Made by a program: the position numbers and the translations under genes
The notes under the pieces: model-generated
Databases searched by the model: none
What the model was told of the DNA's origin: nothing
What the model saw: the letters and a program-made list of their open reading frames with translations, nothing else
Source of the DNA: Branchiostoma lanceolatum
Lineage: Eukaryota; Chordata; Leptocardii; Amphioxiformes; Branchiostomatidae
Length of the DNA: 64,000 nt
Reading direction: 5' to 3'
Assembly: GCF_035083965.1 (NCBI RefSeq)
Contig: NC_089724.1
Coordinates: forward strand, 2,322,501 to 2,386,500
Shown: piece after piece, positions 5,341 through 60,265 of the stretch
How positions within the stretch are numbered: position 1 is the stretch's first letter
Layout of the letters: each line of letters begins with the position of its first letter

Positions 5341-5436
5341 GCAAGGGCAGGATGTGGGTATCCCACTCGAGTTTCATCTGCTAAGGTCTCCCACCAGGTT
5401 GACTGCAACAGCAAGACAAGCTATGCTGAAGACCAG

Positions 5437-6612
5437 ATGGCAGCTCAAGAAATGAATCTGAATAACGTTGGTAGGAAACCCTACATGTGTGACATGTGTG
5501 GGTATAGGACGGTTAGGAGATCTGAACTGTTAGCACATATAAGAATCCACACAGGAGAGAAGCCCTACAAGTGTGACCAGTGTGACTATTCTGCTGCACA
5601 GCGCTCCACCTTGAATTACCACAAAGCGAAGCACACTGGCAAGAAACCCTACATGTGTGGCGAGTGCGGGTTCAGGACAGCCCGAAAATCTACCTTGACT
5701 ACTCATATTAGAACCCATACAGGTGATAAACCCTACAAGTGTGACCTGTGCGACTATTCAGCAGTTATTAAATCGTCTCTGGATGCCCATCTCAAGAACC
5801 ACACCGGTAAGAAACCCTTCATGTGTGGGGAATGTGGATTCAGGACGACTCGAAAGTCTAACCTATCTGCACATATGAGAACCCATTCAGGAGAAAAACC
5901 CTACAAGTGTGACCAGTGCGACTACTCTGCAGCAAAAAAATCAAACTTGGACGTTCATATTTTAGCAAATCACACCGGTGAGAAACCCTACATGTGCGGG
6001 GAGTGTGGGTACAGGACCGCTGTCAGAACTAACCTATCTCGACATATGAGAAAACACACAGGAGAGAAACCCTTCAAGTGTGACCAGTGTGACTATTCTG
6101 CAGCAAGTAAATTCTGTTTTGACAAGCATCTAGCAAAACACACTGGAAATCAAGAGAAACCCTACATGTGCGGAGAGTGTGGATACAGGACGGATCAAAA
6201 GTCTCACCTTCTTCAACATTTGAGAATCCATACTGGTGAAAAACCCTTTAAATGTGACCAGTGTGATTATTCTGCGACACAGAAATCTAGTTTGCAGGGG
6301 CATCTACTAACTCACACTGGTGACAGACCTTTTATGTGTGGGGATTGTGGATACAGGGCACAGAGAAAGTCTGACTTATCTCGACATATGAGAACTCATA
6401 CAGGAGAGAAACCATACAAGTGTGACCAGTGTGACTATTCTGCTGCACAGAAATACAGTCTGGACCTGCATCTAGCTACTCACACTGGTTACAAACCCTT
6501 CAAGTGTGGGGAGTGTGGGTACAAGACAGCTCGAAAGACCCACTTAACCCAACATATGAAAACACATGCAGGAAATTTAGGAGTCCATAGAACACTAACC
6601 TCTGTGAAGTAG
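5437..6612 (+). CDS. C2H2 zinc-finger protein, 13 fingers
   Basis: This 391-residue ORF codes 13 consecutive C2H2 fingers (C-x2-C-x12-H-x3/4-H) at about residues 16-376, joined by TGEKP-type linkers. It is likely a nuclear DNA-binding regulator. Two finger types alternate strictly until the last: odd fingers read (Y/F)MC(G/D)xCG(Y/F)R, even fingers (Y/F)KCDxCDYSA. Finger 13 mixes both (FKCGECGY). This points to growth by duplication of two-finger units. There is no KRAB, BTB or SCAN domain in this exon. The frame stays open upstream from 5341, directly after a splice-acceptor-like TTCTCAATAG, so this is probably the last exon and an upstream exon is likely; the ATG at 5437 is the first Met in the open frame. 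Finger 8 has a phenylalanine-rich middle (SKFCFDKH) and finger 6 a three-residue-longer His spacing. Confidence 0.85.
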   Translation: MAAQEMNLNNVGRKPYMCDMCGYRTVRRSELLAHIRIHTGEKPYKCDQCDYSAAQRSTLNYHKAKHTGKKPYMCGECGFRTARKSTLTTHIRTHTGDKPYKCDLCDYSAVIKSSLDAHLKNHTGKKPFMCGECGFRTTRKSNLSAHMRTHSGEKPYKCDQCDYSAAKKSNLDVHILANHTGEKPYMCGECGYRTAVRTNLSRHMRKHTGEKPFKCDQCDYSAASKFCFDKHLAKHTGNQEKPYMCGECGYRTDQKSHLLQHLRIHTGEKPFKCDQCDYSATQKSSLQGHLLTHTGDRPFMCGDCGYRAQRKSDLSRHMRTHTGEKPYKCDQCDYSAAQKYSLDLHLATHTGYKPFKCGECGYKTARKTHLTQHMKTHAGNLGVHRTLTSVK

Positions 6613-8210: not shown

Positions 8211-11200
8211 TCACATCTGGCTGTAGTCAGAAGGCACGTTGTCTGAAACACACATCCATCAAGCTAGAGTTAGTATTTACTGGTGACATGTTAAATTCTT
8301 CTCAGAAAGAATAATAACAAGTTAATTAAAGTTCCTTGTCAATATCGATTTGTATATGTCAGTGTTTACTAGTGTACAGCCATAATCTTCTCGAAAAAGC
8401 TGTATCATTGTTTATTATTTATTGTTTCGCATTTGTACAAGTATTCTAAAACAGAAATACAGGGCAAAAAAATGCAACTTAACAATAGGAATTATATCAT
8501 AAATTGTACATAACTCAAAACTAAACAAAATTAACGATGAAAGATAAGTTGAACTTATATCATAAATCCTAATAGACGAAAGATACGAGGGAACTCAAAA
8601 TTATAATGTTAAGGTATTTGACATAATGAGGTACGTTAATATGACCAATGGTAATCATAATTAACAAGTGAAGAAATATATCAAAAATTAAACAAAAAAT
8701 TAATTATCAAATACTAATGATCTAACATTTAGTATTATGATTATACTGTACAAACATGTACTTAAAATCCGACAGCCGGGGTACGAATAAACACGAATAT
8801 GTAGAAAACATCTAGTTTTAGCAGATAATCGTGTTGCGACAATGACCTACCGTTGCACTTTGTGACGAGATCCGACCAGATGACGTCCTGCTGGGAGTAG
8901 CAGTACACCCCGAGCCGCCCGCCACGCAGGGTGACGTCATGCAGGTTACCGGAGTCCACAACCAGCTGGCTGCCGGAGTACAGCTTCAGCCTGGGTAAGT
9001 TTACATGAATATTGATATTTTCTCATCTACATCTTAAGGAGAGACACAGGACTCAGAACAGTTACGAACGCTATTTGAGGAAGGGATTACCGGCGTAAGG
9101 CATCCAATCATGTCCTTGACGACGACGAGGAGGTATTGAGTCAATGTTAAAGTCAAAAGCATCCTGTCATTAGTGTATAGAGTAACAGAGAAGAAAATAA
9201 ACATGATTTTTTTTTTTACAGTGGATAGTGCGTACATGGTACTAACAGCAGTTCTAACCACATATCATTCTCATGCTTTCGAGAAGGTCTTCTAGAAGAC
9301 TGATGGCACAATCAAGTACAAAACATGGTGTTTTGAGCTCAAGGCACTTTGACATTGAAACATTGCCGTCCCTGATACACCTGGTCTTCCTGACTGGTAA
9401 TGTATACCTGATGAGTCCGATGTCGGGAAGATGCTTCAGCTCCCAGCGGTAAGCAGTCTGGTCACTCCAGCCGAGCTTGTTCGGGTCTTCCCACAGCAAC
9501 TTTGTCTGGGCAGAAACGTGGAAAAGTGACCGTCACTTCACTATGCTATCATTAGACAGATGTAAACAATCCTGTATTCAATTGCGACAAAGTATTAAAA
9601 GGATCATTCGTTGGCTTTAAAAATCTTAAATCAATATTACAGCTTCTTAAATGGCGTTTAATACTTATAATAACAAGTTAAACTTGCAGACGATACTCTT
9701 CTTACCTGTCCCTGCACCTTGTCTGCCGTCCACAGAGCCGATGCCAGGTCCTGGCCGGGTCCAGTTGTCGAGTATACCAGCTGTCAATACACCACAGGAT
9801 TAGCATTGTATCAATGTTTGTTGCGCCAAATAGTGGTCAGAAACTGATGTTGCGTGTAAAACGGTGGATATCATCATCATAACCATCATTGTTATGTTTC
9901 GCGCATGTCAGAAGCTGCTTGCAATTAGGCGAGCCATCAATTAGGCGAGCCTCCTACCCACACAACATGTCAGCAAAGTCTCGTTCCACAATCTTTTTTT
10001 CCAGCTAGTTCCAGTTCAGAACAGTTATGAGCAGTTGCATCCGCGACCTTGCATCCGTGACTTTGCGACGTGACACAGCCAATTTAGCAGCCACAGCCTA
10101 TGATGAGAACATACCTTCAGCTGAACACCCGCCTCTCCACCGCTGCCGCCCCCTGCCTGCTTCCAGGACACCAGGTAGAAGCGAGAGTTGCTCTGGTAGC
10201 TGAAGACGAAACCCACAAAGTCGTCATCAACCTGGGTGTTTACGAAGAAGGTTCCACGATACTCCACACTGCCGAAGTTGGTCATTCCTGCGATGTTGAG
10301 AGTAACATTTATATGTATCATCAACATACTGTATGCACCATGCAGACAATGATCAGAACATTTGGATGAGAAACAACTACTGGCGCTAGCGATTTAGCTT
10401 TGGTCACAAAAGACCTATTAGATTAGACATCACTTTCTGAAATCCCTTCTGTTAGATACTTTCAATGTGAAGACAATTGAAACCTAGACTATTATATAAG
10501 TAGATGTGTGGTATTAAAGCTGTTACCTTTACTTCACTGTAAAATCATCGATGTAAAACATCGAGAATATCCGAAAGATCATACATAAAGCACGACACGA
10601 TGATGCAAATGGAATGATACGTACCGAGAAGGATTCCAGGATCACTGTTCAGCTTCTGGGTGATCTCGGCACCCTGTGGGGAAAAAGGAAGGATTTGCAC
10701 AACTTACTGCTGGTTTTGTTTGAGAATAATGATTTTGGTGAAAGGCATCCATAAACGAAGATCTCACCTGGTTACTGAACTCCCAGTGTGGCGGGCTGTT
10801 GGAGTTGACGTCTCCAAGGTTGACGGTGAGATACTTCCTGAAGTCTGTGCTGCTGATGACGTTATTTGCTGGACACACGTCATCGGCGTCTAACACGCCG
10901 TCATTGTCAAAGTCAAGGGTGCAGACATCTCCTATACCATTTCCTGTAAAACATATCAAGAAACTGGTAACTAGAAGCACATATATATAGCTCTGTTATC
11001 AAATGATGTACTAGAATATGCATCTGTTTTTCCCAACTTGCCACACGGATGAAAACACAGATGGATTACCTACACATGTACAGAAATGAAAGATCATTTC
11101 AACGACAGAGAGATCTGAGGGCATCAAGACAAACTTACCGTCGAAGTCGGTCTGGTTCACATTCGGCAGGAGGCGGCAATTGTCAACATCATCAGCGACA

Positions 11201-14200
11201 GTGTCGTTGTCATCGTCATCATCACACTCGTCGCCTGCAGAACGGAAAAGTGATTTATCGTAACATTTTCCTATCTGATGAAGAAGCAAATATTGATGTA
11301 GAGATCACGTCTTATGTTTATCTAAAAGCAAATGATCTGATGATATGCAGTTGCAAATACACCTGGCGTTTTGACTAGCTGACGGTCTCTGTGAATGGCA
11401 TGTACTCATCGTTGCAAATTAACGAAAGAAAGTAAAACATATACCGAGGCAAACTATGGAGTCATTTTCTACCCTTAGTCGATAAATCATGTATTCAGCA
11501 AGTATGGCTATAATAAACCCAAGATGTATCAGCAAGTGGCTTAAATGGTTAAGACGATTTACCTTGACCATCATTGTCTGTGTCGAGTTGTGCGCTGTTG
11601 GGCACCATTATGCAGTTGTCTAGGCTATCCGGATAGCCATCGGCATCACTACAAAGACGACAAGAAATATCAGATTATCAACTTGCATCCTAGCATTTCC
11701 ATAACTAGGATGACAATAAATCTATGTTTCCAATAAAGGACACAACAGAATTCAAGTTACGTCAAGTAATGCAGGGTGAGCTTCTATACCAGAGATAGAT
11801 AGATCAATGGATGCATCGCACAAAGATACAATTAAACGTACCTGTCAATGCCAATTGCACAAGCGTCCCCTATCTCATTTTGGTCCGCATCAATCTAGAA
11901 TAGCACCGAAGACACTGAATGTGTAAAACAGGGGTCGACGAAATCCACAAACCACAGAGCAATACCACAATGTAGTAAGAGTGTATCTTTAAGAATAAAA
12001 ATCCTGTATAAAGATAACGTTATATGAACCTGATCAGCATTTGGAACGTCAGGACAGTTGTCGCATGCATCTCCAACGCCGTCTCCATCTGAATCAGTCT
12101 GGTTGACATTGGGCTGCAAGGGGCAGTTGTCATTGTGGTCGTGCACACCTGTTTGTGTAGTATATTCAAGTATAAAGGGTCTGTCATTTTTATAGGGTAT
12201 TAGACGAAGAAAAATAGTACTAGTAACGACGTCCTCAAGTCTACAAAGCTATGTTGACGACACCATTTATAGATACAAAGTTATAAATAGACACAAGATA
12301 CATGAATTACTAACAGAAATATAACGATGTACGATCGGAAAGTTTTGTCATTTGATGACAGCAAAACATTTATCTGGTTTCCTTACCTTCGCCATCGCTG
12401 TCCTGATCACAAGCGTCACCCCGCCCATCCCCGTCGGTGTCCTGCTTGTCAGGGTTGATGTCCGTCGGACAGTTGTCACAGTCATCACCGACTCCATCCC
12501 CGTCGCCGTCCGTCTGGGCGACGTTAGCAGCCAAGGGGCAGTTGTCCTTTTTTAAATATAATTTTTTAAAATGTATTGGTCAGCATTGGTTATAATGCAT
12601 TAAGAGATTCAGATCCTAAAGACCCAGAGACATATCATGAAATATCGTGGCAATCCATCTAGATCTTTAGCTTTTAAATTTTGTTTCTATCAATCAAAGT
12701 CACAGACACACAAACTAAATCACATACGCTTCCGAAAACATAACATTCTTGGCTAGGCTGGGTAGTGAACAGTGTGCTAAAGGTGCCAATAGATGATTTG
12801 GAAATAACTGAATTCAAGATAATGAGTTTTTTTAAAGAGACTAGTTGATAAAATGCTTCAATTTGTAGATTTGTCAAACATAACAATATCATTATGTCAA
12901 TAGTGTCTATTTTACATTAGTTATGTTATAGACTAGTTGAGGTATGGCTTGGGTTATTACCAGAGTGTTTATAACGCCATCATTGTCCATGTCATAGTCA
13001 CAGGCGTCCCCTGACCCGTCGTCATCTGTGTCCTCCTGCCCGCTGTTAGGTGTCCATGGGCAGTTGTCCTAGAATGTTGAAACAAAAGACCCATTACAAA
13101 CAGGCAACGTTCGTGATTGAATTACTTTGTATGAAAGGTCACAGTGAATGGCGCATTTCAATATGTACAACAGGTGCAAACATTCTATGATGGCAGAAAC
13201 AGTCATTTATTGAATTTTGAAGTAAACAGTGAATTTTTGCTTTAAGAAACGAAAGCACAGATACCTGTTTGCAGGTAGTATCGTTACAGGACAGGGAAGC
13301 ATCAGGATAGCCGTCCTGATCACTGTCCAGGCAGCAGGTCAGTCCATCATTGGAGCCAGCATAGCCGACCTCGCACTAAAATGCGATAGGCGTAAATAGT
13401 GACGTTTTGCAGTACTTTTTGAATTCATTTGACCTAACGCAAGAACAACATCGATTCTGCAATAACGGATATCTAGAATACAAGGCCCTCACCTTGCATA
13501 TCAGCTCTGTTTTCTCGTAAGCACAGATGGAACACGGACCGTCGTTCCCAACACAAACTGTAATGCCAATGAACACAATAAGGTTGGCATCATTCGATGC
13601 TCCTATTTCTTTAATGTTTCATGACACTTTGGTCATCGTATCACGGTAAAATACAAAACAAATCTATGAACTAGGGAATTAAACTTTACGTCCAACACAA
13701 GAATGAATTGCGACTTACCCAAATTTTCGGCTGACTCCGTTAACCTTGTTCACGGAATGGACCCGTTTACTCCTGGAACGTGACGTCAGAGACGCGTGAC
13801 CGTAGTAGCGGGTCATTCTTGTGTTGGACGTAAAGTTTAATTCCTTAGTTCATAATGACTTCTACCAACACAGATGAACTTTAATGCTAAATAAAACAAA
13901 GTTAGTACACTTACTCGCGACGCATTCCTCCTGCTCCACAGATCGAGGAAACACCGTCCAGGTGTTGTCAGGACAAGCTTTACAGGTGACCTGTGCAGGT
14001 AGGTCCTGGTATTGTCTCACAGGACAGTCCTCACATGTGTCGGTAGCGATGTTGTGGAAGGTACCGGCAGGACAGTCAGCTGTATGAGACGATGCAGTAC
14101 ACGATCATTTATCATATGTACTATTAAGTGCGTTTGGTAAATCTTTAACCGAATCTGTATGACGATAGGCTATGAATATTTGTAGGTCTTGAAACATAGT

Positions 14201-15132
14201 GGGTGTAAACAAATCATGTCAAGTCTAAGCATTGCCAAGTAACGAACGGTAACTTCACGATTGTTTGTATATCATCAGAATGTACTTACTGCAGTATGCC
14301 TGAAAGTCGTCCTGGTACGCGTGCTGTCCGTCTGTGCAGTTGACCTGTATCTCTGCGAAGCCCATTTCGAAAGACGCAGCGCTCAGAAGCTGTCCTCCGA
14401 TGGCCTGGTTGAACTGATTGGCAGCAACCTTCTCTTCGATCTCGTAGTAAACATCGTCCAAAGCGAAAACCAGGTCAAGCTGATGATTTTCGGTGACGGT
14501 TTGCGCGGAAGTAATGGCGACTACTTCAAACTTGATGGTGAAACCACTTGTGCTTTCCAAAACCTGTAGGTTAACAACGGACCTCTTGTTGTCGCTGGTA
14601 ACTCTGGCAGTAGCTCCACATTCGATGTCGACTGTTCCCAGCTGTGTGGAGATGCCAGCACCAGGTTGAGCCGACTGTAAGTCGCTGAAGATCTGCTCAA
14701 AGTTAGTGATGATCTCCTGAATGCTGCTCTGGCAGTCTCCGTCGTAATAGTAAAATACCTCCCCTTTGATATGTGCTCTTCCAGGGCGGTATCTGCCTGT
14801 TGATGCACATGGGTCATGTTATTAGATGGCATATGCTCAGTCTTCGATGAAATTTCACTGTGTGCTTCATCTTCTGTGTAAGGCTTTTGCAAAACTAGGG
14901 AGCCCAAACCTACACGACTCACTCCTCCTCACAAGAGCTATCTACCACAGTGACTGAAAAATCATGACCATAGCATGTCCAGAATAGGAGATATCAAAAT
15001 CATGATTTCCGTTGCAACTATCATCATAAGCCGCTAGTTAGTCCGAGCTTTGATCAGCTCAAGGTCTCATCAAGACCTACCCACATACCAATATATCAAG
15101 ACAATCCACCCAGGCATTCTCGAGTTATCGTG

Positions 15133-15205
<73 letters not shown>

Positions 15206-18200
15206 ACAGACACACGCGCGCGCACGCACGCACACACACACACACACACGCACGCACGCACGCACACACACACGCGCAAACATAACGTTTTGGCAAAGGT
15301 AACTACTAACCCGTGCAGTCTGGCCAGGGCCTAGGCCCGGGCGGCAGCGGCTGCGGACCGCTGGACGCTGCCGACAAGGCACTCCAGACACCGAGTGCGT
15401 TACACGTGTAGGCATCTGCCGGGCGTCCTGCAAACTCCCTGTCTCCCTCGCAGAACAGCGTGCACATCATGGAACCCGTTGTGACGTCAGAGGTCGTACA
15501 TACCTTCCCACCGTACTGGGGAGCGTCGTAGTCTTCGCTGCAAGGGGCTGGGAATGGTCACATGGTCAATGTTCATGCTTCGATTATTTACATCATGTTT
15601 GATATAGCTCCCCTATTGATTTTAGACTTTCTTGAATTGTTGTAATGTGATTCGACTGTTAAATACATTTTCTTTGATATGTGTATGTTTTTAAAAATTG
15701 GTAGTACAGTTGTATCGACATCATATGACATCGTCTGCGCCAGTGGCAATCGGTGTTATCAATGAAATAAAGGGAAAAATGATCTTAACATGATACTATA
15801 GAAGGCTACTTGTCAATTTTTGTTATATTGTAGAAAAAACTTGAAATCGCTTGAACTTACGTGTCTGGCATCTTTCTCCCTTGTATCCCGTTGGACACGT
15901 GCATGAGAAGGTGGAGTCCCCATCCACACAGGTGCCGCCATTGTCACAGGCGTCCGCAAAGCAATCATCCGCGTCTGGAAACAATATGATAATTACAAAT
16001 CTTACTTTAAGAACACATTTACAGATCCCATACTTGTAGAATGCATGTACATTTGGGAGAAAAGTGTAACGAAATATTTACCAGTTCATGTGACAAGCTG
16101 CTTAAGCTTGTCATTTAAAAGTAGGTATCTATTGCTTTGCTACTCATCTTAGCACCAGTTTTAGTTAAACAAGTATTTAATCATTATCATTACCTATGCA
16201 GCTGCGAAGATCGTCCTGAAGCTCGTATCCAGGTTCACAGTGGCAGTGGTAGCTACCCGGGGAATTCTGACAGACGCCGTGGAAGGGGTCACATAAGCCA
16301 TGCCCCCCGTTCGCATCACATTCATTCTCGTCTGGGAAGAAAATGATGGAAACCAGAAATAAAGCAAGCAGTAGTTTAGTGTATGCGACGAACGAATATC
16401 TAAATCTGATCTGCACTTTCGTCTGAAGGAATAAACAGGTGCAGGTTACAGGGAGGAGATACTGTCGCCACATCAACAGCAAGTGAAGTGCTGGCTCCAA
16501 TGAAAGGATTATCTGCAACAAATGTATTTCAACCTTAATGAGTTAGCAGCATATGCAACACCTTACCAGCTAAAACGTAATTTTGGAATTTTCTAAAAAA
16601 AAATGTTACCTAAACAAGACTTCCCGTCGTCAGCGAGAGAGAAGCCATCGTCACATCCGCATGAGAACCCACCGTGGGTGTTCAGACATCGTTGTTCGCA
16701 GTCATGAAGTCCTTCGGTACAGTCGTCCACATCTGTTAAAAAGGATTGAAGTATTTTAGATATCGGATATCTAGATACTGTGATACTGAGGAATCTTCAA
16801 AAGTTTTATCTGAAATTCTTTCAAAGGACTACAATTCGAAAATGGAAAAATATACATATACCTTATAAGGAATGTGAAAATAAAAGTAGTGCTCGGATTG
16901 CATATTTTTTGTCAAAAATGTTTAAACTCGAAACAGCTCCTACCGGTGCAGGAAAAGCCATCTGAGTCGAGCTGATATCCCGCCTCACAGGAGCAGCGGT
17001 AGCTTCCGTCAAGATTGGTGCAGGTTTGGTCACATGGTCCTCGTCCTCCATTGGTCAGGCACTCATCTGCGTCTGTAAAAGTGTACTGTCAACGACACTC
17101 AAAGCACCCAGTACAGCAACTATAACCTGATTTCACTTAAACATGCAACAACATGCAACAACATAATGTTGCCGATATTAGCGTGAAAAACTCGGGACAC
17201 CAACCCGTGGCATTTCTCTGTTTCCTTCGCTGCAGGTAGAAAGGAAGTCTTAGTCCACCTAGGTCCTACCCGCAGAATAAAACAACAACAACATCAGCAT
17301 TCGTTAATTTTATCCAGACAAGGTCTAAGATGTTCCTACCGATGCAAGAAAAGCCGTCAGCATCCAGCTGATGCCCCGCCTGGCAGGAACAGCGGTAACT
17401 GCCGTGCACATTGGTACAGATGTGGTCACATGGACCTCGCCCTCCGTTAGCTTGGCACTCATCTGCGTCTGCAGGAAATAACAGGACACGATGGCCGTAA
17501 CCATCAACTCTACGCTCAATAACATTGTTGCATTCGAAGTATTTCATAGTTTGGTTAACCCATCTTTATGACTAACAAACCGTTGACTTCATGCCAAGCC
17601 TCTTCTAAATTGTCAAACACTAGCGACCAAATTCTTGATACCGTTGCTTTGTACCATCCAGGGTCAGGGTCAGGGATAAGAGTGGCATATTAGCTGTCTC
17701 CATTAATTACGCTCCTTTGCTAGCACCATGTTGTTTAAGTTCCGTCGTGTTTTCTCCTTAATATCATCCATCGATTACAATACTTGATGAACAGATCCGG
17801 GTATGCCTAAACACCTCACCCGACCTCATCCGACCTCACCCGACCTCATCCGAGTCTAAAATGCGGTGTATACGGGACAGGGACATTATCTGACGTTCTG
17901 GATACGTTAAATATGCAATTATAAATGCAAAACAAGCAGCAAACTTGAAGTATTTACCAGTTTTATAGGTAATGGGAGGTCAAGACGGTCGGCGCAATGA
18001 ATACACACTACGTGCGTGTATTCGAGGCTGAAAAACACTTTGTGTACAGTTATTGTGTACAGATACTGTGTACAATTATTGTGTACAGTTACTATGAGTG
18101 GTTTGTGATAAAAATGTAATTAGTATCCACCGTCTTATCGTCCTGTCGGACAAAAATAAATAAAAAAGGTATGAAGAACTTCCCCATGTAGACCCCAACA

Positions 18201-21200
18201 GTGGCATGATCCAATATGGCGGCCAGAAATCTTCTATCTTGGAAACGAGCGGAGTAACTTATAAAAACTGGTAAATACTTAGTGTTTGCTGCTTGTTTTG
18301 CATTCATAATTGCATATTCAACGTATCCAGAACGTCAAATAATGTCCCTACCCCGTATACACTGCATTTTAGACTCGGATGAGGTCGGGTGAGGTCGGAT
18401 GAGGTCGGTTGAGGTGTTTAGGCATACCGAACAGATCCTATTGTTGGATATTTGAAGTTATAAAATAAAGATGACATTTTGAGTCATACGTATACCGCGC
18501 CAGGCTGGAGGCCTGCTCGCCTTAGCCTAGGACCTCCCCCCCCCCCCTACTTTGCCCCTCGCGGGGTTATCTGGGGGTATATCAAGTTGAAGTTGAAGTA
18601 CAAAATAGCGCGTACCAACACAAGAGACGCCGTCGGAAGCCAGCTGGAAACCCCTCCGGCACGAGCATCGGTAGCCCCCGTGCAGATTTGTGCAGGTCTG
18701 CTCACATGGACCTCGTCCTGCGTTAGACGTGCACTCATTCACGTCTGTAGACACGGCAATGAAAATTAACATATCCATTTATCTATGATGCACATATTGT
18801 TTTTTGGTCGACTGATTTGGATGAAGACCACTCCCCAGGTATATTTTAATCTTACTTGTATAATTAGATCGATAATAAGGGCAAATCATCCTCAGTATAT
18901 CTTTAATATTGGCTCACATTTTGCAAGTTCCAGAGTTAGCCTTATTTGAATATCCTCAGAAAAATGTACAGCCCCTTAAATATATCACGCTGCTTACTAG
19001 CCTGTATTTACACAAGCTCTCGGCCGGAGGTTAATGACCCCCTTCTAGGGAGATGGCGGTTACAGGACCGGCTGGCCACTAGGAGCGCGATTCATCAGGC
19101 TAGCTGCTTTCAAGCGTCTTCCCGCCCTCTTCAAATATCAACCCATGAACAATCAACTATGCCTCCCATGTTTTTCGTTTAATTCACTATCATGATTTCA
19201 AAAAAGGTAATAGTGGTTAGAGAAGGACAACGGCACTTCACCTGACTGACAATTGGTACCAGTCCATTCAGGTTTACAGTGACACCTGTAGCCGTTCATC
19301 AGGTTCTGGCAGGTCCCGTAGTGAAGGCATGGATTGCTGTCACACTCATCGACGTCTGTAACGAGACACGATTAAACTCGTTTGCAATACTGTGCCCGTA
19401 GATCGGGTGTCACATTGTGATGATGGTTGCTAGGCAAACTCCACTTTGCCTTCTTGAAACGTTGTTGTAAACCGTAAATTCGAAGGACTCTGTTGGTATT
19501 TATTCGAGTTGGCCGCACGTGGGTTTGCTGTTTCCCTTGCAGTAGCTCAACTCCATTAGTTGTAATAGAAATGATCTAACAATGAATTTGCAAGAACAAT
19601 GATATTACAAGTAACAGATGATAAAGTCAGCAACCTAATCCTCTAGGATTTTTACATCTTTCCACGCAACTTTCCCTACCTTGATTACAGTTGGTACCTC
19701 CCCAGCCGTTGCTGCATCTGCAGGTATAGCCGCCGATTGTGTCTGTACAGCTTCCGTGTTCACATGGGGAGTCAAGGCACTCATTTCGATCTGGAGAAAC
19801 AATGGGAGTAGTGTCAATTACTTTCGCTTTTTTTTTTCTACAGACCTGTATTTTAAATCTGTCAGGTACATAACACATCAAGTTTTCCAGATGAAAATTT
19901 TTATTTTCAAAATCAAGGCCCAAAAGAAGAAAAAACTTATTTCTAAAAATACTACTTGCTTATTGTTCATTGGAGACGTATCGGAATACGTTAGAAGGTT
20001 GTTTTACACGCATGGAGGCGCGACAAAGAGGTGAAACCTTGGTTCTAAAATATGTTTCATAAAAAAAGCTAGATTTTAATTGATATGTAGACAGACCTAC
20101 CAGCTGCAGCAAATCCATTAAAAATCTTTTTATTTCACCTTCTTCCTTTTTCTGGCCATCGTCTAGATCTGCGTCGGAAAGCCTGCACCGAGGTGAATGA
20201 TTGCCTAATTTGACCAGTCAAGGGACTGAGCAAAAGCGATTGCCCACTTTTAGTAGACAAGGGCTACTGTACATACACAGACAAGTAGTCTCGATAGACA
20301 GGTTTCCGCCGGACCAGTGGTGGGAAGGACTTGATCACTGATGTTGTGCGTTACGCGGCCTACTTCCGAGCGGGCGGAGAAATTGCGAAATGAAGCAAAC
20401 ATAAAAGCAAAGTGGAAACAATTCACCGCGTTTTCCTTCCATTTATTGCAAAAAAGTACCGTGGACACAAACTGGCGAATAGCTCAGTCATTTTAGGTAT
20501 TGAAAAAGGAACTTGCGATCCCCAAACCAAACTCTTTTTACTTACATTTTAGTCATGGCCCCCGGTACACTTGCGCCCTCCTCACACGTCTTCGCACCGG
20601 CACGTGCAGTCTTAACCAAAGTTTATTTACACGTAATTTAGTAACAAGTCAAGCCTGCATTTGTGAATGTCGAAGCGAAAGCGTTGTCCATTATCTTTTG
20701 TACTGCCCTATATACAGTCAACAAAGACTCAACCTTCTGGGCAACCTACGGAACCTTTTAGCCCCCATACTTGATCTTTATCTGATCAAGCCTTCATTCA
20801 TTTGTTATTAAGAGGCTCATCCTTTGTTTCGTATGATTTCAATTGTAACATTTTAGGCACTATATTGCGACAAGCAAACGTTTTAAAACTTAGTTCAGGT
20901 GTGTTCATATATTCACTGTTTGTTTGATAGTTTGTTTGTATTGGACGGCCCAATTGCTGTTTCTTATTGTTATTGTACTTGTCTATGTAGTTGTAATTTT
21001 TATTTCCAGAGGTGATGTTTAATATTAGCTATAGCTAGAGTGTCCTGTATATTCTTCTGCTGCTTAATAAAAAAAAATTAATAACCGTGCTCATTGCGGT
21101 CGTGTTAACCAGGTGGTCCTTCGTGATGCCTGTGACTATTGGAAAAATGACAAGAGACAGAGAGGAAGCCCCCTTGGGCAGTTGGTTGCCTTGGGGAAGT

Positions 21201-22902
21201 GGTCGCCTTACCAGGTTTGACTGTAAATTGTTCCCTAAATGCCCCAATGAACCTGGTCTACAATATGATGACGGTAAATGAACCAAGCCTGTATTTTTCA
21301 CAACACTAATTACCTGCACACAGAGCGTATTTGTTGGAGTAGTATCCCCCTAACAATGGCCATCTGCAAGTGTCGGCGTCTATACCAGAAGTGCTGTCAA
21401 TACTGTCGACGATGTTAGTTGTAGCAAGGTACACGAAGGTGTCATCCAGCTGCTGGCAGCACGCGAAGGCTGGGTGACCAGTCAGTTTATGCGCGAGGAC
21501 ACCAAAGGTAGTACAGTGGACGCCGCCGTCGTCAAAACGGATGCATTCTGGGCCCCAGTAGATGCCGTCACACGCAGTGGAAAAGCCGGAGTACCAACAT
21601 GGAAACTCCATGCCCGCCGCTTCACACGTGGCTCTGACGTTTGCACGGGTCATATAACCCCGTGCGCGAACTTTATAAAATTTCCATCCATCGACCGTGG
21701 CCAGATACACTTGCTCACCTAAAACAGAGAAGGATTTAATCAACATCTAGATTTGCATCTAATAGTCTACATTATTAGATGCAAAATATTACCATCTATT
21801 GACATAAAAACGATTCCTGATTGGCAGAAGAAAATATTTCTGAAGACTTGCCTAGACATGACAATAAACAAACCGTATTGCTTAACCCACAAACACCCGA
21901 ACCTTTTTTACGACTAAAATGACTCAACTGGGTCAAAAATGACTCCAAAATGTTTTGTTTAGTAAAATCTCCCTTTTTTTTTCTTTTTTCGCTGATTGTT
22001 ATCCGTACATTGCTTCATCAATGTAAGAGGAATGTTTTGGCATGTTTAGGTATGAATAACTCCCGTTCATTATCATAATTTATGCAAAAATATCAGAAAG
22101 ACAACGTTTTGAACTCTCCCTATTTAGACCGTGAGGGGATTCAGTTTGAGGCCCACGCCAAATTTCATGTTGCGTGCGTAACTCCTTAGCGGCTCACGCT
22201 AGAGCCACCAATCTTGGTGACTTTTTAGAAAATATCCTTAACAAAGATTTCAAATCAATAAAGTAAGTTCATCGTTTTTTGTGTTGCCATGGCAATGGGT
22301 TTTTGACAGGCATATCTAACAAATTCTGCTAATTTTAGTTCAACCAATGACGTTTCGAGGCTTTGTTGTACACAAAATTTATCATGGTAATACTAATTCA
22401 CATGTGAATTATACTCAGAAATTTGGTGGTCATACAACAAGTAGTTAAGGAGTTACAGAGGGCAGGTCTCAAAAACAGCACATTATTTATAAAAATGACC
22501 CCAGTCGGACTCGACAGACTTTCTTCTATAATGTCAACAGTATTGTGCCAATCTCTCTAGAAATTAGGAGAGCTTTGAATAGACGTCTACTGACAAAGTC
22601 ACGGAAGAAATTTCTTTTCCGATCAAACATGTTCAAATGGCACATCAAAATCCACGCCTGGGGTAAAAATGACCCCGTTCGGGTGTTTGAAGGTATGTTC
22701 TTGATTATATTGTGTATATAAGATGTAGCCCTTCAATGCCATACACCTCATATTTGTGCCAAACACAATGTACTTCATTTTCGCCAATGTAGTTACTTTT
22801 TTACATTTTGTATGAATACAAAAAACTACTTCTCTACTTACCCATGGAAAGGGCTGCCAAGGCGACCACATCCATCAAGAACAGAAGAAACGTATTTGCC
22901 AT
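8211..22902 (-). CDS. P1/TSP: chimeric thrombospondin with unknown Cys-rich domain, EGF, sushi-like and Ephrin_rec-like modules
   Basis: 28 exons (minus): 22902-22842, 21718-21314, 19790-19680, 19355-19242, 18744-18616, 17468-17340, 17072-16944, 16732-16610, 16331-16194, 15974-15861, 15547-15311, 14796-14290, 14079-13915, 13557-13493, 13375-13265, 13068-12961, 12546-12387, 12148-12030, 11894-11842, 11648-11563, 11234-11139, 10943-10768, 10673-10625, 10287-10115, 9780-9706, 9505-9408, 8990-8851, 8242-8211. All phases agree: 3,903 nt, 1,300 aa. Order: signal 1-20 ([20 protein letters not shown]); unknown Cys-rich domain 21-155; eight EGF repeats 156-484; sushi-like 485-563; unassigned 564-732; Ephrin_rec_like 733-787; degenerate EGF remnant 788-809; TSP type 3 repeats 810-1082 (DNCP, DxDxDGxGDxCD); TSP C-terminal domain about 1083-1295 ([29 protein letters not shown]). 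Secreted calcium-binding matrix glycoprotein by family. The TSP half is certain; joining the first two exons rests on phase, exon order and lack of another start exon. Confidence 0.82.
13666..13853. mobile_element. MITE with about 41-bp terminal inverted repeats
   Basis: The ends are inverted copies of each other: the left end ATGAACTAGGGAATTAAACT matches the complement of the right end with one or two changes, and the pairing continues through TTTACGTCCAACACAAGAATGA. The 188-bp length with no coding capacity fits a MITE. It lies in a thrombospondin intron. Confidence 0.7.
15040..15300 (+). repeat. Copy of a dispersed 'TACCAAATATCA' repeat with a long (CA)n tract
   Basis: The stretch reads AAGACCTACCCACATACCAA, then AATCCACCCAGGCATTCTCG, then a CA/CG-alternating tract (15135-15277), then TTTTGGCAAAGGTAACTA. 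The same order recurs at 27,146-27,570, 54,060-54,425 and 55,575-55,715, so this is a dispersed repeat whose internal tract has become a microsatellite. It lies in the intron between the sushi-like exon and the next exon of the thrombospondin gene. Confidence 0.65.
17800..18428. mobile_element. Foldback/Mutator-like non-autonomous element with a 10-bp target duplication
   Basis: The two ends are long inverted repeats of roughly 170 bp, starting GGTATGCCTAAACACCTCA and ending with its complement. Each arm carries tandem CTCACCCGAC/CTCATCCGAC words and an arm-internal TTTTGCATTCATAATTGCAT-type block. The element is flanked on both sides by GAACAGATCC (17789-17798 and 18429-18438), a 10-bp target-site duplication. 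Long TIRs with a 9-10 bp duplication are the Mutator (MULE) hallmark. The middle has short TGTGTACAGTTAT reiterations and no transposase. It lies in a thrombospondin intron. Confidence 0.8.
20500..20870 (+). mobile_element. 3' fragment of a non-LTR retrotransposon (LINE) ORF2
   Basis: The frame reads [19 protein letters not shown], then C-x-C and [13 protein letters not shown]. This matches the cysteine/histidine zinc-knuckle region found near the C-terminus of Jockey/I/CR1-like LINE reverse-transcriptase proteins (…C-x-C-…-ExxxHxxxxCP…). Reverse-transcriptase motifs are absent, so this is a truncated 3' piece. It lies in the intron between the unknown-domain exon and the first EGF exon of the thrombospondin gene. 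Confidence 0.55.
21890..22689. mobile_element. TIR-bounded 800-bp element of unassigned superfamily
   Basis: CAAACACCCGAAC at 21890-21902 is exactly the complement of GTTCGGGTGTTTG at 22677-22689. Next to each end are matching words (TAAAATGACTC near the left, TAAAAATGACCCC near the right). No clear target duplication or transposase was found. It occupies intron 1 of the P1/thrombospondin gene. Confidence 0.45.
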
Positions 22903-22949
22903 ATGTTGAGTTGAGCCCAGACTCTGTTTAATGTGTGTGAGGCTTGTGC

Positions 22950-23090
22950 TGTGCGCGGCAATTAATACTGTGTACGGTCCCAAGGCCATGGGAACCACAC
23001 AGCTGACCGGTAGGGACGGGTACTATTAATATTTCTGCGGACGAAAGGTCTTGGCCTGACGCGAACACGGGCGTTGCTGATTGGTGCGAA
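22950..23090 (-). promoter_or_regulatory. Conserved family promoter upstream of P1
   Basis: The minus strand carries, in order towards the gene: a CCAAT box (complement of GATTGG near 23,080), CCGCAGAAATATTAATA, a CAGCTG E-box within ACCGGTCAGCTGTGTGGTTC (TGTGGTT is a Runx-type site), CCATGGCCTTGG, and a TATA-like AGTATTAATTGCCG near 22,960. The start codon is about 60 bp further on. The block recurs upstream of P2-P5, so it is very likely the shared core promoter; here the TATA box has drifted to TATTAA. Confidence 0.65.
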
Positions 23091-23317
23091 CCAAAGGATG
23101 CAGATAAAGAAGTCAATATTTTCTACGCGACGGCATCGCAATGGGCTTCAATGTCTCAAAAACAACTTCGTCATAGGCTCCATAAAATACATCACTTATG
23201 ATCTTTATACACATTTATCTGTTAAGTACGATTTTTTCTTTCAAAGTATACTCTTCTCCAAATATATAAAACCACTTTAAAGTTCTTTCATTAATTAATA
23301 GTACCTATCGAGTTACT

Positions 23318-37499: not shown

Positions 37500-37700
37500 C
37501 TGTGCGCGGCAATATATATTGTGTCCCAAGGCCATGGGAACCACACAGCTGATCGGTAGGGACGGGCGCTATTAATATTTCTGCGGAAGAAATGTCTTGA
37601 CCTGGGGTGACACTGCGGACTGCTAATTGGTGTGAACTGCAGTAAGAAGATAAAAAGTCAACATTGTTTACGTCAGTGCAGCACCGTGCGCCTTTACCCC
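37500..37700 (-). promoter_or_regulatory. Conserved family promoter upstream of P3
   Basis: A TATATAT-type box at about 37,511-37,519 (minus) is preceded by CCATGGCCTTGG, TGTGGTTCC, the CAGCTG E-box, ATTAATAGCG and an ATTAG-type copy of the CCAAT region near 37,622. The start codon lies about 60 bp downstream of the TATA box, implying a 5' UTR of about 30 nt. Confidence 0.7.
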
Positions 37701-55900: not shown

Positions 55901-58900
55901 ATCTGAATGATAAACCAGCACAATGTTATACATGCTAATTGCGAAATCTACAGTCACAAATAACTAATACTATGTAGGTTCATAGTTCGCTTACTGTGTG
56001 CATCGCATGCTAAAAGCGTTATCTGTGTACCCATTAGACACAGTTGTCACTCTTTTTGACTAGTTACAGTTCGTTCAATTGTTTTATAAGTTTTTTTACG
56101 GTTCTCTCTGTGGCAGATGTGCTAGATGTTGTCACATCGGCAACCGAATCCGTAGTGTGTTTTTGGCGCACATTTTTGACAGATTAGCCGAACAGGCTCG
56201 GTGGGCGTCACTCCACCGTCAGGGAAGGTCGTGCAAAGTGCCTTTCCTAAGGGCACAACATCCGGGCATGGTGAGTATCGAACTCGGGACCTACTGATTC
56301 CGAGTTCAACGCTCTAACCGTTACGCCACGCCGACGTCACTGGTTCGCCGACGTCTATAGTATAAGTGCACTGTAAAAACTAACCTTGGTCACAGTTGGT
56401 CCCTACCCAGCCGTTCTCACAGCTACAGGTGTAGCTCGCCAGACCGTCCGTACAGGTTCCGTGTACACATGGGGAGGACGCACAGTCGTCAATGTCTAGG
56501 AAAAGAGATTTAAGTTAGTCTACGATTACCGTTTCCGGGGAACCATTGCTTAGTAAATTGGTCGCATTAATGTATACGAGCCCTGGCACATTTTGTCACG
56601 ATGCAATATTCACACTGGTTGTCTGTATCCAGTATCCATTTCCAATTCCCACTGGTGGCAATTCAAACGAAATGAAGATAAATCTAATAGACTATACATG
56701 ATGAAAAAGAATCACTTGCATCCATATGATTGAACTTGACAAACCTTGATCACAGTCGGCCCCCTCCCATCCGTTCTCACACATACATGTGTAATTTCCG
56801 TTGTCATTGGTGCAGGTTCCATAGACACATGGGGATCCGCCACACATAGGGACAGGGGCTGGAATAATACATGCATCCAACATTATCATATCAAGGCAAT
56901 TCACCTTCCATCCTTCCAATTGATCTCCTAAGTAATTTAGTTTCTGTCCATAAGAGGAAACGAAATTAGAAGTAAGAAACTTTTCCTTTTCCCCCGTTAT
57001 CGATTTTTCACCAGCCAATTGCATGAGAAGTAATTATATATCCAATCTCTGTCTCATAAATCATTTTTACTTGAGTCATAAAATGGTACCTTCCCTATTG
57101 AAGGCTCAGCTTTTTAAACCATTGGAAGAAAATCCAAAAATATGTAGCTACATCCTTCTCATTATTCAACAGCTTGTGTTATGTTGATTACAATACAACA
57201 ACAAAGTCACGTCACGCTTATGCGCCCTCTGACTTTCAACAATATAAATTCTCCCAAACAGTTAGATTTGCCCACACCCCCCTGTTTTGTGTAACGACAA
57301 CGAGGCTGCGTCCTTACCTGCACACAGGGCGTACATGTTGTTGTAGTTCGCTCCCTGCAGATTGTAGGTGTGAGTCTCGTAGTCCACTCCCAAGGCGCTG
57401 CCATCACTCTGCCAGCCATGGATGTACACAAAGGTGTCATCAAGAGGCTGGCAGTGACTGCCGTACCCAGAAGTTGTTCCACACAGGTTTGCCGAGAGGA
57501 CCTGGTGGGTACGACAGCTGACACCGCCGGCGTCATACGTGATGCAGCCTGAGGTCCACGCGCTGGTACACCCAGCACTACCTGAGCGGTAGCACGGGTA
57601 CCCCATCCCCGCTGCCTCGCACGCGGCCTTGACGTTGGCATTGGTCATCTGCCCGGCGGTGACAATTTTATAAAACGCAAATCCGTCGATAGAGGTCAGG
57701 TATACCGGTTGACCTTGAAGATAAAAAGTTAATCATTTTTTACTAGACATTTTTCAAAATAACTGCCAGGGATCAACTTAGACACTTAAATTCAACAGTC
57801 GTCTGATTTCCAACATTCAAGCACCAGATTATATGATATGGCATTAACTGCCCAAACACCACATCATCTAGATTAAGAAAGATGTTAAGATTCTTCTTAA
57901 TGGGAAACATTTACAAAATAGTGACCAGCCAGGTAAACAGAGGAAAATAATTACAGTAGTCAATTTGCAAATATGTATGCATATAACTTTTTTAAATACA
58001 AGTCAATGGGGGAAACAATATAATCAATATGGTACCAATGAAAATGGCTCTTAGCTGTTCACCAATCAACAATGCTGGTATCATGTCACATTTTAGTAAA
58101 CTTTGCGTTGTAGACGGTACAATTAAATTTGTTCTATAGACTTGTTTAGCAGACGCAAAATATTGTTTTGGAAATTAAAGTAGTAAAAAGACATGGGAAA
58201 CAACTTATACGCGCATCTGCTTGGAGATAGATAGTGCTCTAACGCGTACGGTCTTTCCTACACATTACGTATCCTCTGTCTTATTAACTATTTGCAAGCT
58301 GGGTGAGCAACAAAAATCCATGACATTCTCAAGAGATTGGAAGAGAAAGATAAAGTTTTGGATCATGTCACCTATCTAAGGCTTAATCCCACTACAGAAC
58401 AACCCCCAGCATTCTACGGCCTTCCCAAAATCCACAAACCGGGTGTCCCTCTACGACCCATTGTCTGCAGTATAGGATCAGTCACTTATAACCTAGCAGG
58501 TCATCTGGCTAAGATCTTGGGACCATTAGTGGGGAAGTCTCAGCATCATGTACAGAACAGTGCAGAGTTTGTCCACAAAATCAAAGACATCATTGTAGCA
58601 GAAGATGAAATCATCACTTCATATGATGTGTGCTCGCTTTTCACTTGCATACCCCCTAAGGAGGCAGTCTCAGTAGTCAAGTGTGTCGTCGGCCTCCAAC
58701 GACACAGCAGATAGAACCAACCTTTCCGTTAAACACATATGTGAACTACTAGACCTTTGCCTAGGGTGCACATACTTCACGTACAAACAACAGTTTTTCC
58801 AGCAAGTGCACGGCTGTGCTATGGGATCACCATGTTTCACCCATTGTAGTGAACCTGTACATGGAGAAGTTTGAGAACAAAGCCCTCAGTACTTTCAATG

Positions 58901-60265
58901 GCCCTCCCCCAGCAAACTGGTTTCGCTATGTAGATGACACTTGGTGTAGGTTAAAAGAGAGAGTAGCGGACGACTTCTTTGACCATATAAACCAGGTAGA
59001 TGACAACATCAAGTTCGCACAGGAGTCGTGTCAAAACATCAGGCTCCCCTTCCTAGACACCAAAACCATCATAGAGAAGGATGGCAACCTTCAGTTCGAA
59101 GTGTACGGAAACCGACCCACACTGATCAATATCTGGCCTTTGATTCCCACCACCTTTTGGAACACAAACTAGCAGTGATCAAAACTCTATTCCATCGGGC
59201 AGACAATGTCATCACCTCAGACGAAGCGAAAACAGACGGACACAGGCATCTCCGTGCGGCCTTAGCCAAGTGTGGCTACCAAAATTGGACCTTCAAGAAA
59301 ACCTTCTGACCAGTCTAAGAAAACACTCAAGTGCAAACCATTGACCAACAGAAACAAGGCCAACATTACCATTCCCTACGTCCAAGGAGTATCGGAAAAA
59401 CTCAGACGAATATTCCAAAACTTCAACATTGCCACTAACTTCAAACCTCACTCAACTCTCAGGCAGAAATTGGTCCATCCAAAAGACAGGCCTGAAAAAG
59501 GCATCAAAGCCAATGTCATCTACAAACTGAAATGTGAGGAACCGAACTGCAATAGCATGTACATTGGGGAGTCAAGTCGACCACTGAAAGAAAGGTACAA
59601 GGAGCATTGCAGAAAGAGCGCTAACCGCTACTCCTCTGCCATTTTCCACCATCTAAAACACGACCAGGGACACTTATTCAATCTCGATTCCACGGACATC
59701 CTAGATCGTGAAGAACGCTGGTTCAAACGGGGAATCAGAGAAGCAATATATGAGAGGATGTACAACCCGGCCCTCAACAGGAAAGGGGGTCTACGCGTTG
59801 AACTTTCAGGCACTTGGGATAATGTACTGGTGTTCTCAGTCCTACCGTTAGTCACTAACGAAAGACAGTGGATGCTGTCTGAAACGTCTGACTGTTTCAA
59901 AATTTTATCCAGTTGCTTGAGTAATTATTTTTGGCGTATCTTACTACCTGGATGTCTAACTTTCATCAAGCAACAAAAATAGCCTTGAAAAATGGCCATT
60001 TGCTGACTTCACACTTCCCGGTACAGGTCACGTGGGTCCTTCCAAATTGATCAGTGGACCGAAAAAGCTTTGATAGCTTGTTACTGTGTGTACGAAATAG
60101 CTGATAAAAACTCAAAAGAAACAGTATCCATTTGCCATGACACAGAATTATCAAGTGACTAACATCAAATACATGTAATGTGGACTAAGTAGAATCACCT
60201 TGTGTCGAGTCCGGCCAGGCGATCACAGCCGCGACGAAGATCAGAAACTCCCACATCTTTGCCAT
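49977..60265 (-). CDS. P5: secreted unknown-domain/EGF/C-type lectin protein, 523 aa
   Basis: 11 exons (minus): 60265-60199, 57713-57318, 56858-56745, 56495-56385, 55902-55789, 55117-54893, 51833-51705, 51416-51303, 51043-50930, 50526-50449, 50086-49977. Phases agree; 1,572 nt. Order: signal peptide 1-22 ([20 protein letters not shown]); unknown domain 23-154; three EGF repeats 155-267; C-type lectin domain 268-385; two EGF repeats 386-461; two four-cysteine modules 462-523 ([13 protein letters not shown] and [14 protein letters not shown]). The unknown domain lacks the extra cysteine pair seen in P3 and P4. Intron 1 carries a Penelope-like element, and the 3-kb intron between the lectin halves carries a composite repeat. 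It is an intact-looking gene; function unknown. Confidence 0.9.
50276..50304 (+). repeat. (GAGT)n microsatellite
   Basis: About seven GAGT/GAAT units in the last intron of P5. Confidence 0.8.
53400..54055 (+). repeat. 128-bp tandem repeat (five units), each with an ATGCAAAT octamer
   Basis: TTATGCAAAT-type words occur at 53449, 53576, 53705, 53833 and 53961, spaced 127, 129, 128 and 128 bp. Between them recur TTGCATA, CCTCTCTTCCTCAG and ATGGAA(T/C)-type words. The third unit has ATGCATAT. This is a diverged minisatellite. Confidence 0.75.
54060..54425 (+). repeat. Full-length-looking copy of the dispersed repeat family
   Basis: It contains TTCCGCTGCAGTACCGTAAC, AAGATCTACCCACCTACTAA, CCTTCTCGAGTTATGCTGTA, a short ACA tract, CTACCGTCTGCATAACCTTC and GGCGAAGGTAATAA in order. 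This tail is the best reference for the other copies. Confidence 0.6.
55575..55715 (+). repeat. Partial copy of the dispersed repeat family
   Basis: It reads AAGACCAACCAACATACCAA, AATCCATCCAGGCGTTCTTT, TACCCTCTGCAAAACC and TTTGGCGAAGGTAA, matching 54,290-54,420. Confidence 0.6.
56090..56336 (-). mobile_element. tRNA-derived SINE
   Basis: On the minus strand the head reads GGCGTGGCGTAACGGTTAGA (A-box region), then CGAGTTCGATACTC (B-box), then GTGCCCTTAGGAAAGGCAC. It resembles a lysine- or glutamate-type tRNA head but is followed by a long SINE body. It lies in a P5 intron between EGF exons. Confidence 0.7.
58290..59985 (+). mobile_element. Penelope-like element: reverse transcriptase plus GIY-YIG endonuclease, broken
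   Basis: The frames code, in order: [19 protein letters not shown] and [12 protein letters not shown] (reverse-transcriptase motifs 1-3, 58,337-58,714), [11 protein letters not shown] (motif 4 region, near 58,800), FRYVDDTW (catalytic motif, about 58,920), a linker, then a GIY-YIG nuclease (VIYKLKCEE…[17 protein letters not shown]…, 59,500-59,800). This domain order defines endonuclease-bearing Penelope-like elements. The reading frame is broken about four times, so it looks inactive. It has replaced or interrupted the part of P5 intron 1 corresponding to 36,300-37,190 of P3. Confidence 0.85.

Follow-up and report, generated by a model that had tools for sequence, protein, structure and literature searches.

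We describe a gene of the lancelet Branchiostoma lanceolatum that very probably is a single chimeric thrombospondin (TSP) gene, with the front end of a tandem array of lectin-like genes joined to a thrombospondin tail. The gene lies on the minus strand, from 22902 to 8211, of a 64,000-nucleotide stretch of DNA (assembly GCF_035083965.1, contig NC_089724.1, positions 2,322,501 to 2,386,500 of the forward strand; hereafter, the window), which also holds the array members that we call A to E. The predicted protein would comprise, in order, a signal peptide, the array's unclassified domain (hereafter, the array domain), an array EGF and perhaps a second one, six further EGFs, a six-cysteine module, a second unclassified domain, an Ephrin_rec_like module, and the thrombospondin C-terminal region. 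A secreted product of one gene, formed by recombination between phase 1 introns in the tandem array, is in our judgement the likely explanation of the features taken together; transcription as one mRNA and a graft in the direction from array to thrombospondin are what we infer from them.

Rebuilt from the raw sequence, the gene has 28 exons that sum to 3,903 nt including the stop codon and encode 1,300 amino acids. The initial annotation of this locus is reproduced here in its exon number, length and consistent phases, and in its coordinates 8211, 19790, 21314, and 22902. All 27 introns have GT..AG ends, phases match across the 28-exon model, and a single frame runs to a single stop, which is the last codon. 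Exons 2–13 are each of phase class 1-1, and introns 1–13 are all of phase 1; exon 14 (phase 1-0) opens the thrombospondin block, and the exons that follow are of mixed phase. For codon usage the fair test is a comparison of the three frames (the intron control is biased, as stop codons are penalised), and the score favours the model frame in 26 of the 28 exons, exons 11 and 12 among them, but not in exon 1, which encodes the signal peptide, nor in exon 25. The continuity of the model bears on whether an assembly or haplotype artefact has fused unrelated segments. Only one assembly is at hand, and the locus is one of repeated genes with mobile-element fragments, but the window contains no Ns, the frame is intact over 3.9 kb, and introns 2–4 have no second copy in the window (E 1e-3) able to cause a false join, so that we consider such an artefact very improbable.

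Judged by its sequence, the C-terminal half is a complete thrombospondin region of the canonical type. A Pfam scan of the whole protein (E 0.01) identifies TSP_C at 5.3e-76, TSP_3 at 4.9e-46 in six stretches, and EGF_CA at 1.3e-37 in seven. When the C-terminal 512 residues are compared with PDB sequences (E 0.001), all four matches are thrombospondins, the closest being COMP (3fby; E 7.1e-169, 494 residues aligned, 566 bits) and the others TSP-2 (1yo8, 2rhp) and TSP-1 (1ux6). By the gene model and the PDB alignment, the last, irregular thrombospondin EGF and the beginning of the type 3 repeats are encoded by exons 14–15 (13265–13557), a region with weak EGF-type matches only, under the cut-off. 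Pfam and the PDB alignment place the type 3 repeats in exons 16–22 (10768–13068), with an RGD at residue 924, and the C-terminal lectin-like domain in exons 23–28 (8211–10673), with a DDD at residue 1149 and the stop at 8211. Both motifs are positioned as in COMP, and the unit of the thrombospondin superfamily, that is, EGF-like domains, type 3 repeats, and TSP C-terminal domain together, is present.

The strongest new evidence for the chimera comes from the other end of the gene. Its promoter and 5' untranslated region (22903–23127) are homologous to the array promoters at 37672, 47552, 60483, and 28073, which share 74–80% DNA identity with it. Identity is 78% to member B over 23127–22860 (275 columns), 80% to D and 79% to C over 23127–22895 (234 columns), and 74% to A over 23033–22895 (145 columns). 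A 61-nt core within this region (23040–22980) is 95% identical to the corresponding sequence in B, 95% in C, 97% in D, and 82% in A, and contains CAGCTG and TGTGGTT, which we take to be an E-box and a RUNX-like site, respectively. Moreover, a 32-nt core pattern, derived from the thrombospondin-gene copy and allowed up to three mismatches, occurs five times in the window, once per promoter-bearing member and nowhere else, and not once in 100 shuffles.

The rest of the front end has diverged much further: the signal exon is 62, 56, 62, and 55% identical to those of B, C, D, and A, and the silent sites of exon 2 differ from theirs by 56, 58, 53, and 65%. Because the core is 95–97% identical to B, C, and D despite these differences, selection or gene conversion appears to have preserved it. 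The sequences are most simply explained by selection on shared regulation; conversion may be the cause instead, and a binomial test of the core, which takes the silent-site difference as the neutral rate, is compatible with it as well. From these comparisons, the promoter of the thrombospondin gene is an array promoter, its core nearly unchanged while its flanks drifted.

Exon 1 (22842–22902), recovered both in the reconstruction and in a scan for signal exons, carries the ATG and signal peptide and ends in a phase 1 donor. Exon 2 (21314–21718, phase 1-1) encodes the 134-residue array domain. The window holds four related domains, at 26.9, 35.9, 45.8, and 57.7 kb (59, 51, 50, and 49% identity), each of them on the same strand. 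The splice ends of the domain exon are in register in all five copies. The ratio of nonsynonymous to synonymous change (dN/dS) for exon 2 is 0.21 against member A and 0.38–0.52 against B–D, and the copy in the thrombospondin gene is therefore constrained. Searches of Pfam, NCBIfam, and PDB sequences with the exon 2 domain gave nothing above chance, and pattern searches gave 94 stretches in IMG/VR and 72 in GTDB genomes, none of them confirmed; the domain of member B matched DUF6416 at 0.086, under the cut-off. The initial annotation had described an array promoter, signal exon, and domain exon running in phase into EGFs and a full thrombospondin end, a description that promoter and domain homology, Pfam, and PDB all bear out.

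The comparison of the array domains cannot be rooted, and member A is intermediate in distance between the thrombospondin copy and B–D. Both points would suit a reverse history, in which a thrombospondin first had the promoter, array domain, and EGFs, and the array genes are its front half with a C-type lectin added. The surrounding genes argue otherwise: among the four other promoter-domain units in the window, three lead to a lectin, A leads to nothing found, and none leads to a thrombospondin (orders read by eye), and member E has the lectin and EGFs, with an F5/8C domain replacing the array domain. We regard the reverse history as unlikely and favour a graft from array to thrombospondin.

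The contribution of the array probably extends beyond exon 2. We compared 16 array EGF exons and the eight of the thrombospondin gene, and built trees from them (the protein tree on 38 columns). The nine sequences nearest by nucleotides to exon 3 (19680–19790), among the 23 other EGF exons, are the nine array EGFs of type 'a', at 63–69% identity, with the next at 56%. Among the EGFs aligned, a spacing of four residues from Cys 2 to Cys 3 is found in exon 3 and the array 'a' EGFs only, and exon 3 groups with these with bootstrap/SH-aLRT values of 80/89 on DNA and 92/93 on protein. Exon 4 (19242–19355), perhaps of the array's 'b' type, has as its nearest neighbour by nucleotides the array EGF b43229 (63%). 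By these measures exon 3 looks to be an array-type EGF, with moderate tree support, and exon 4 may be one.

With exon 3, and perhaps exon 4, assigned to the array type, the graft point is probably intron 4 (18745–19241) and not intron 2. The junction between 21314 and 19790 (exons 2 and 3) therefore falls within the array-derived part. Exon shuffling or gene fusion in a tandem array, placing a thrombospondin under the family promoter, as the initial annotation had proposed, finds support in the sequence; the exon 2/3 junction that it singled out is probably not the graft point. The intron between EGF 'b' and the lectin in members B and D is of phase 1 at both ends (by eye), the same as intron 4. 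Past this position, the array genes continue into a C-type lectin and the thrombospondin gene into further EGFs and thrombospondin. In the mechanism that we propose, recombination between phase 1 introns within the array would have placed the front of a lectin-like gene, from its promoter through its EGF, ahead of a thrombospondin gene; the site is probably that of the present intron 4. Intron 2 contains a reverse-transcriptase-like fragment (20497–20811, plus strand; zf-RVT 0.0024, under the cut-off), which lies away from the inferred graft point.

Several observations weigh against this account. Exon 4 joins the array 'b' EGFs in the DNA tree (89/88) and not in the protein tree; branches with exon 3 and those with exon 4 all fall short of the program's mark for strong support, and both exons are long branches. 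The comparison leaves out at least three array EGF exons (near 51.4, 41.4, and 32 kb) that belong to a different type. Agreement of phase is by itself weak evidence, since genes of this kind often have phase 1-1 exons, and silent sites, being near saturation, give no date for the event. The function proposed below is based on motifs and family knowledge only. Finally, an open reading frame that begins exactly at an ATG at 18778 runs in frame through the exon 5 acceptor, and polyA-type hexamers lie in intron 2 (seven) and intron 4 (three), among others, so that some transcripts may end early.

The start at 18778 is the basis of one serious alternative, that of two adjacent genes: a truncated array gene (exons 1–4 or 1–2) ending in intron 4 or intron 2, and a separate thrombospondin gene starting within intron 4, at about 18.8 kb. 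The ATG, in frame with exon 5, is followed by a short hydrophobic run, and hexamers are available for the upstream gene at 19183, 18907, and 18850 in intron 4, as are the seven in intron 2. Yet the exon 5 acceptor is intact, with a phase 1 split codon as in the neighbouring exons, the leader from 18778 is a short acidic stretch, and intron 4 spans just 497 nt and lacks the family promoter pattern. Two separate genes thus seem to us quite unlikely, and the single chimeric gene the better account.

Our scan for signal exons looked for single ATG exons of 13–40 codons that encode a hydrophobic core and end in a phase 1 donor. Run on the minus strand of the window in its strict form, it gave 12 starts: seven at the five array signal exons, all of which it recovered, that of member E, and those at 18778, 56889, 44100, and 4861. 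Between 22902 and 13557, it found exon 1 and the read-in at 18778 only. The relaxed form gave 41 starts, six of them between 22902 and 13557. The initial annotation had singled out the interval from 19,800 to 21,300 as the place where another first exon would undo the fusion. The strict scan of 19.8–21.3 kb gave no first exon with a good donor, and the relaxed scan gave one weak candidate, at 20442 (donor 3/6); a thrombospondin start in this interval was rejected on these grounds.

The modules between graft point and tail are of several kinds. Exons 5–10 (15861–18744) encode six more EGF modules, each of phase 1-1, by the gene model and Pfam. Exon 11 (15311–15547), read as coding from its codon usage, encodes a six-cysteine module that is sushi-like by eye only, with no sushi match in Pfam or PDB. 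Exon 12 (14290–14796) encodes the second unclassified domain, of about 169 residues, for which family searches gave chance-level matches only; its coding signal is 64 bits in the model frame, and the two other frames are negative, with stops. Exon 13 (13915–14079) encodes a cysteine-rich module that, as a piece alone, matches Ephrin_rec_like in Pfam (E 6.1e-12) and is unlisted in the whole-protein Pfam scan. Because that scan missed this module, absences from it are not proof. When exons 3–13 were compared with PDB sequences, the best 60 of 117 distinct sequences included EGF proteins such as Notch 1 (5.1e-31), and none of these 60 had its best stretch beyond residue 333 of 632, roughly where the EGF exons end. 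A crude heptad scan placed its best windows in exon 12, with those of 21 and 28 residues at the 95% mark of the shuffles and that of 35 residues above it. Intron 5 holds an inverted repeat (18428–17800; arms of 165 nt, 94% alike), a foldback-type element.

In the sections of PMC6526912 drawn on here, conservation of DDD is high among canonical TSPs; most sushi-TSPs have it as well, and mega-TSPs lack it. The DDD stands in COMP's place, and the tail is therefore of the canonical type within this scheme. As in canonical subgroup B (COMP/TSP-5, 3fby), the EGF end, type 3 repeats, and C-terminal domain can be aligned, with DDD and RGD in the same places; unlike it, the protein has no coiled coil that is clear from the crude heptad scan, and the tail is preceded by the array domain, eight EGF exons, two modules without a recognised family, and Ephrin_rec_like. 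After the signal peptide, where the array domain stands, the whole-protein Pfam scan lists no match to the domain typical of canonical subgroup A and most of subgroup B. Sushi-TSPs, which according to the same sections have three or more sushi domains and one EGF and are known from sponges and anthozoans, are similar in length (1,000–1,300 residues), perhaps in having no clear coiled coil, and, in most cases, in the DDD of the first lectin-like domain. However, no sushi domain is recognised here by Pfam or PDB, eight EGF exons with seven EGF_CA stretches take the place of the single EGF, and there is one C-terminal lectin-like domain. Membership among the sushi-TSPs was rejected for these reasons, and the likeness to thrombospondins with sushi modules drawn in the initial annotation falls with it.

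Mega-TSPs, recorded there for two Branchiostoma species, likewise place other modules ahead of the TSP C-terminal region, including in some a cysteine-rich module related to Ephrin_rec_like, but they lack the DDD present here. Their leucine-rich repeats, cadherin, MAM, and second C-terminal lectin-like domain, as well as the multiple tandem type 1 repeats (TSR) of poriferan-TSPs, were not listed in the whole-protein Pfam scan, which has one TSP_C stretch and can miss domains. Array members B, C, and D share with the thrombospondin gene the promoter, signal exon, array domain, EGF 'a', perhaps EGF 'b', and phase 1 introns; they differ in having a C-type lectin and two further EGFs where thrombospondin stands here. 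Member D matches Lectin_C at 9e-8 (two halves joined by eye), and the whole-protein scan of the thrombospondin-gene product lists no Lectin_C. From the modules that we recognise, the front end is none of the kinds described in the sections of PMC6526912 used. The same architecture was not found among the matches listed in searches of the thrombospondin and wider literature, which did not reach two key works (Bentley and Adams 2010; Tucker and Adams 2024), nor in passages of PMC1464143, PMC11401434, and PMC4224354. As read from its sequence, the gene is a new architecture within a known superfamily; chimeras of phase 1 exons are themselves well precedented.

The thrombospondins form an old, much-studied family of matrix proteins in which the N-terminal half has been altered repeatedly. 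Because the relatives of the front end remain next door in the tandem array, the swap can here be read at the level of exons and promoter, which makes the locus a testable case of promoter capture and module grafting, with a recognition-type domain put on a matrix anchor. Exon shuffling in lancelets is reported to be extreme and to have a 1-1 phase bias (PMC4284660), and the chimera would be one concrete instance of it; in flies, tandem duplication yields chimeras with altered expression (PMC5460883).

In known members, the thrombospondin tail binds calcium, cell-surface receptors, and matrix (sections of PMC6526912 cited above). We tentatively propose that the product would act as a matrix-bound or bridging recognition protein co-expressed with the array, and that it may lack the coiled coil that canonical thrombospondins have. 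The gene would be expressed where and when the array is, its N-terminal domain would bind its ligand, and the calcium-loaded thrombospondin tail would tie the protein to matrix or to integrin-bearing cells; secretion, matrix binding, and expression with the array are all predictions. A more doubtful extension is that the thrombospondin was recruited into the regulation of the array, such that a shared core promoter would drive one binding domain in two versions, a lectin-type and a matrix-anchored one, together, and that member A may be a second set of first exons giving a two-domain isoform.

In member A (27937–26501, minus strand), the promoter core and a signal exon are accompanied by a domain exon that is intact and ends in a good phase 1 donor (GTAAGC); between this member and the promoter of the thrombospondin gene (23127), no EGF or lectin exon was found. 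We see three possibilities for A: that it is a gene of one domain, that it is a remnant, or that it supplies alternative first exons to the thrombospondin gene. Member E (3570–1, minus strand) represents a second difference in front ends within the array: its signal exon (3570) is followed by an F5/8C domain (5.8e-15, two half-exons joined by eye) in place of the array domain; EGFs of the array type and an exon for a C-type lectin come next, and the promoter pattern common to the other members is missing.

Rfam and tRNA scans gave no match (the tRNA scan used the bacterial code), and a bacterial promoter scan is uninformative for an animal gene. Within the array, at 58307–59982 on the plus strand, lie fragments resembling a Penelope-type element, namely a reverse-transcriptase-like stretch (by eye, with no Pfam match) and a GIY-YIG stretch (0.0018, under the cut-off). 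The interval that separates the thrombospondin gene from member E contains, on the strand opposite to them (5341–6612, plus), a 423-residue open frame with many C2H2 zinc fingers, as recognised by eye.

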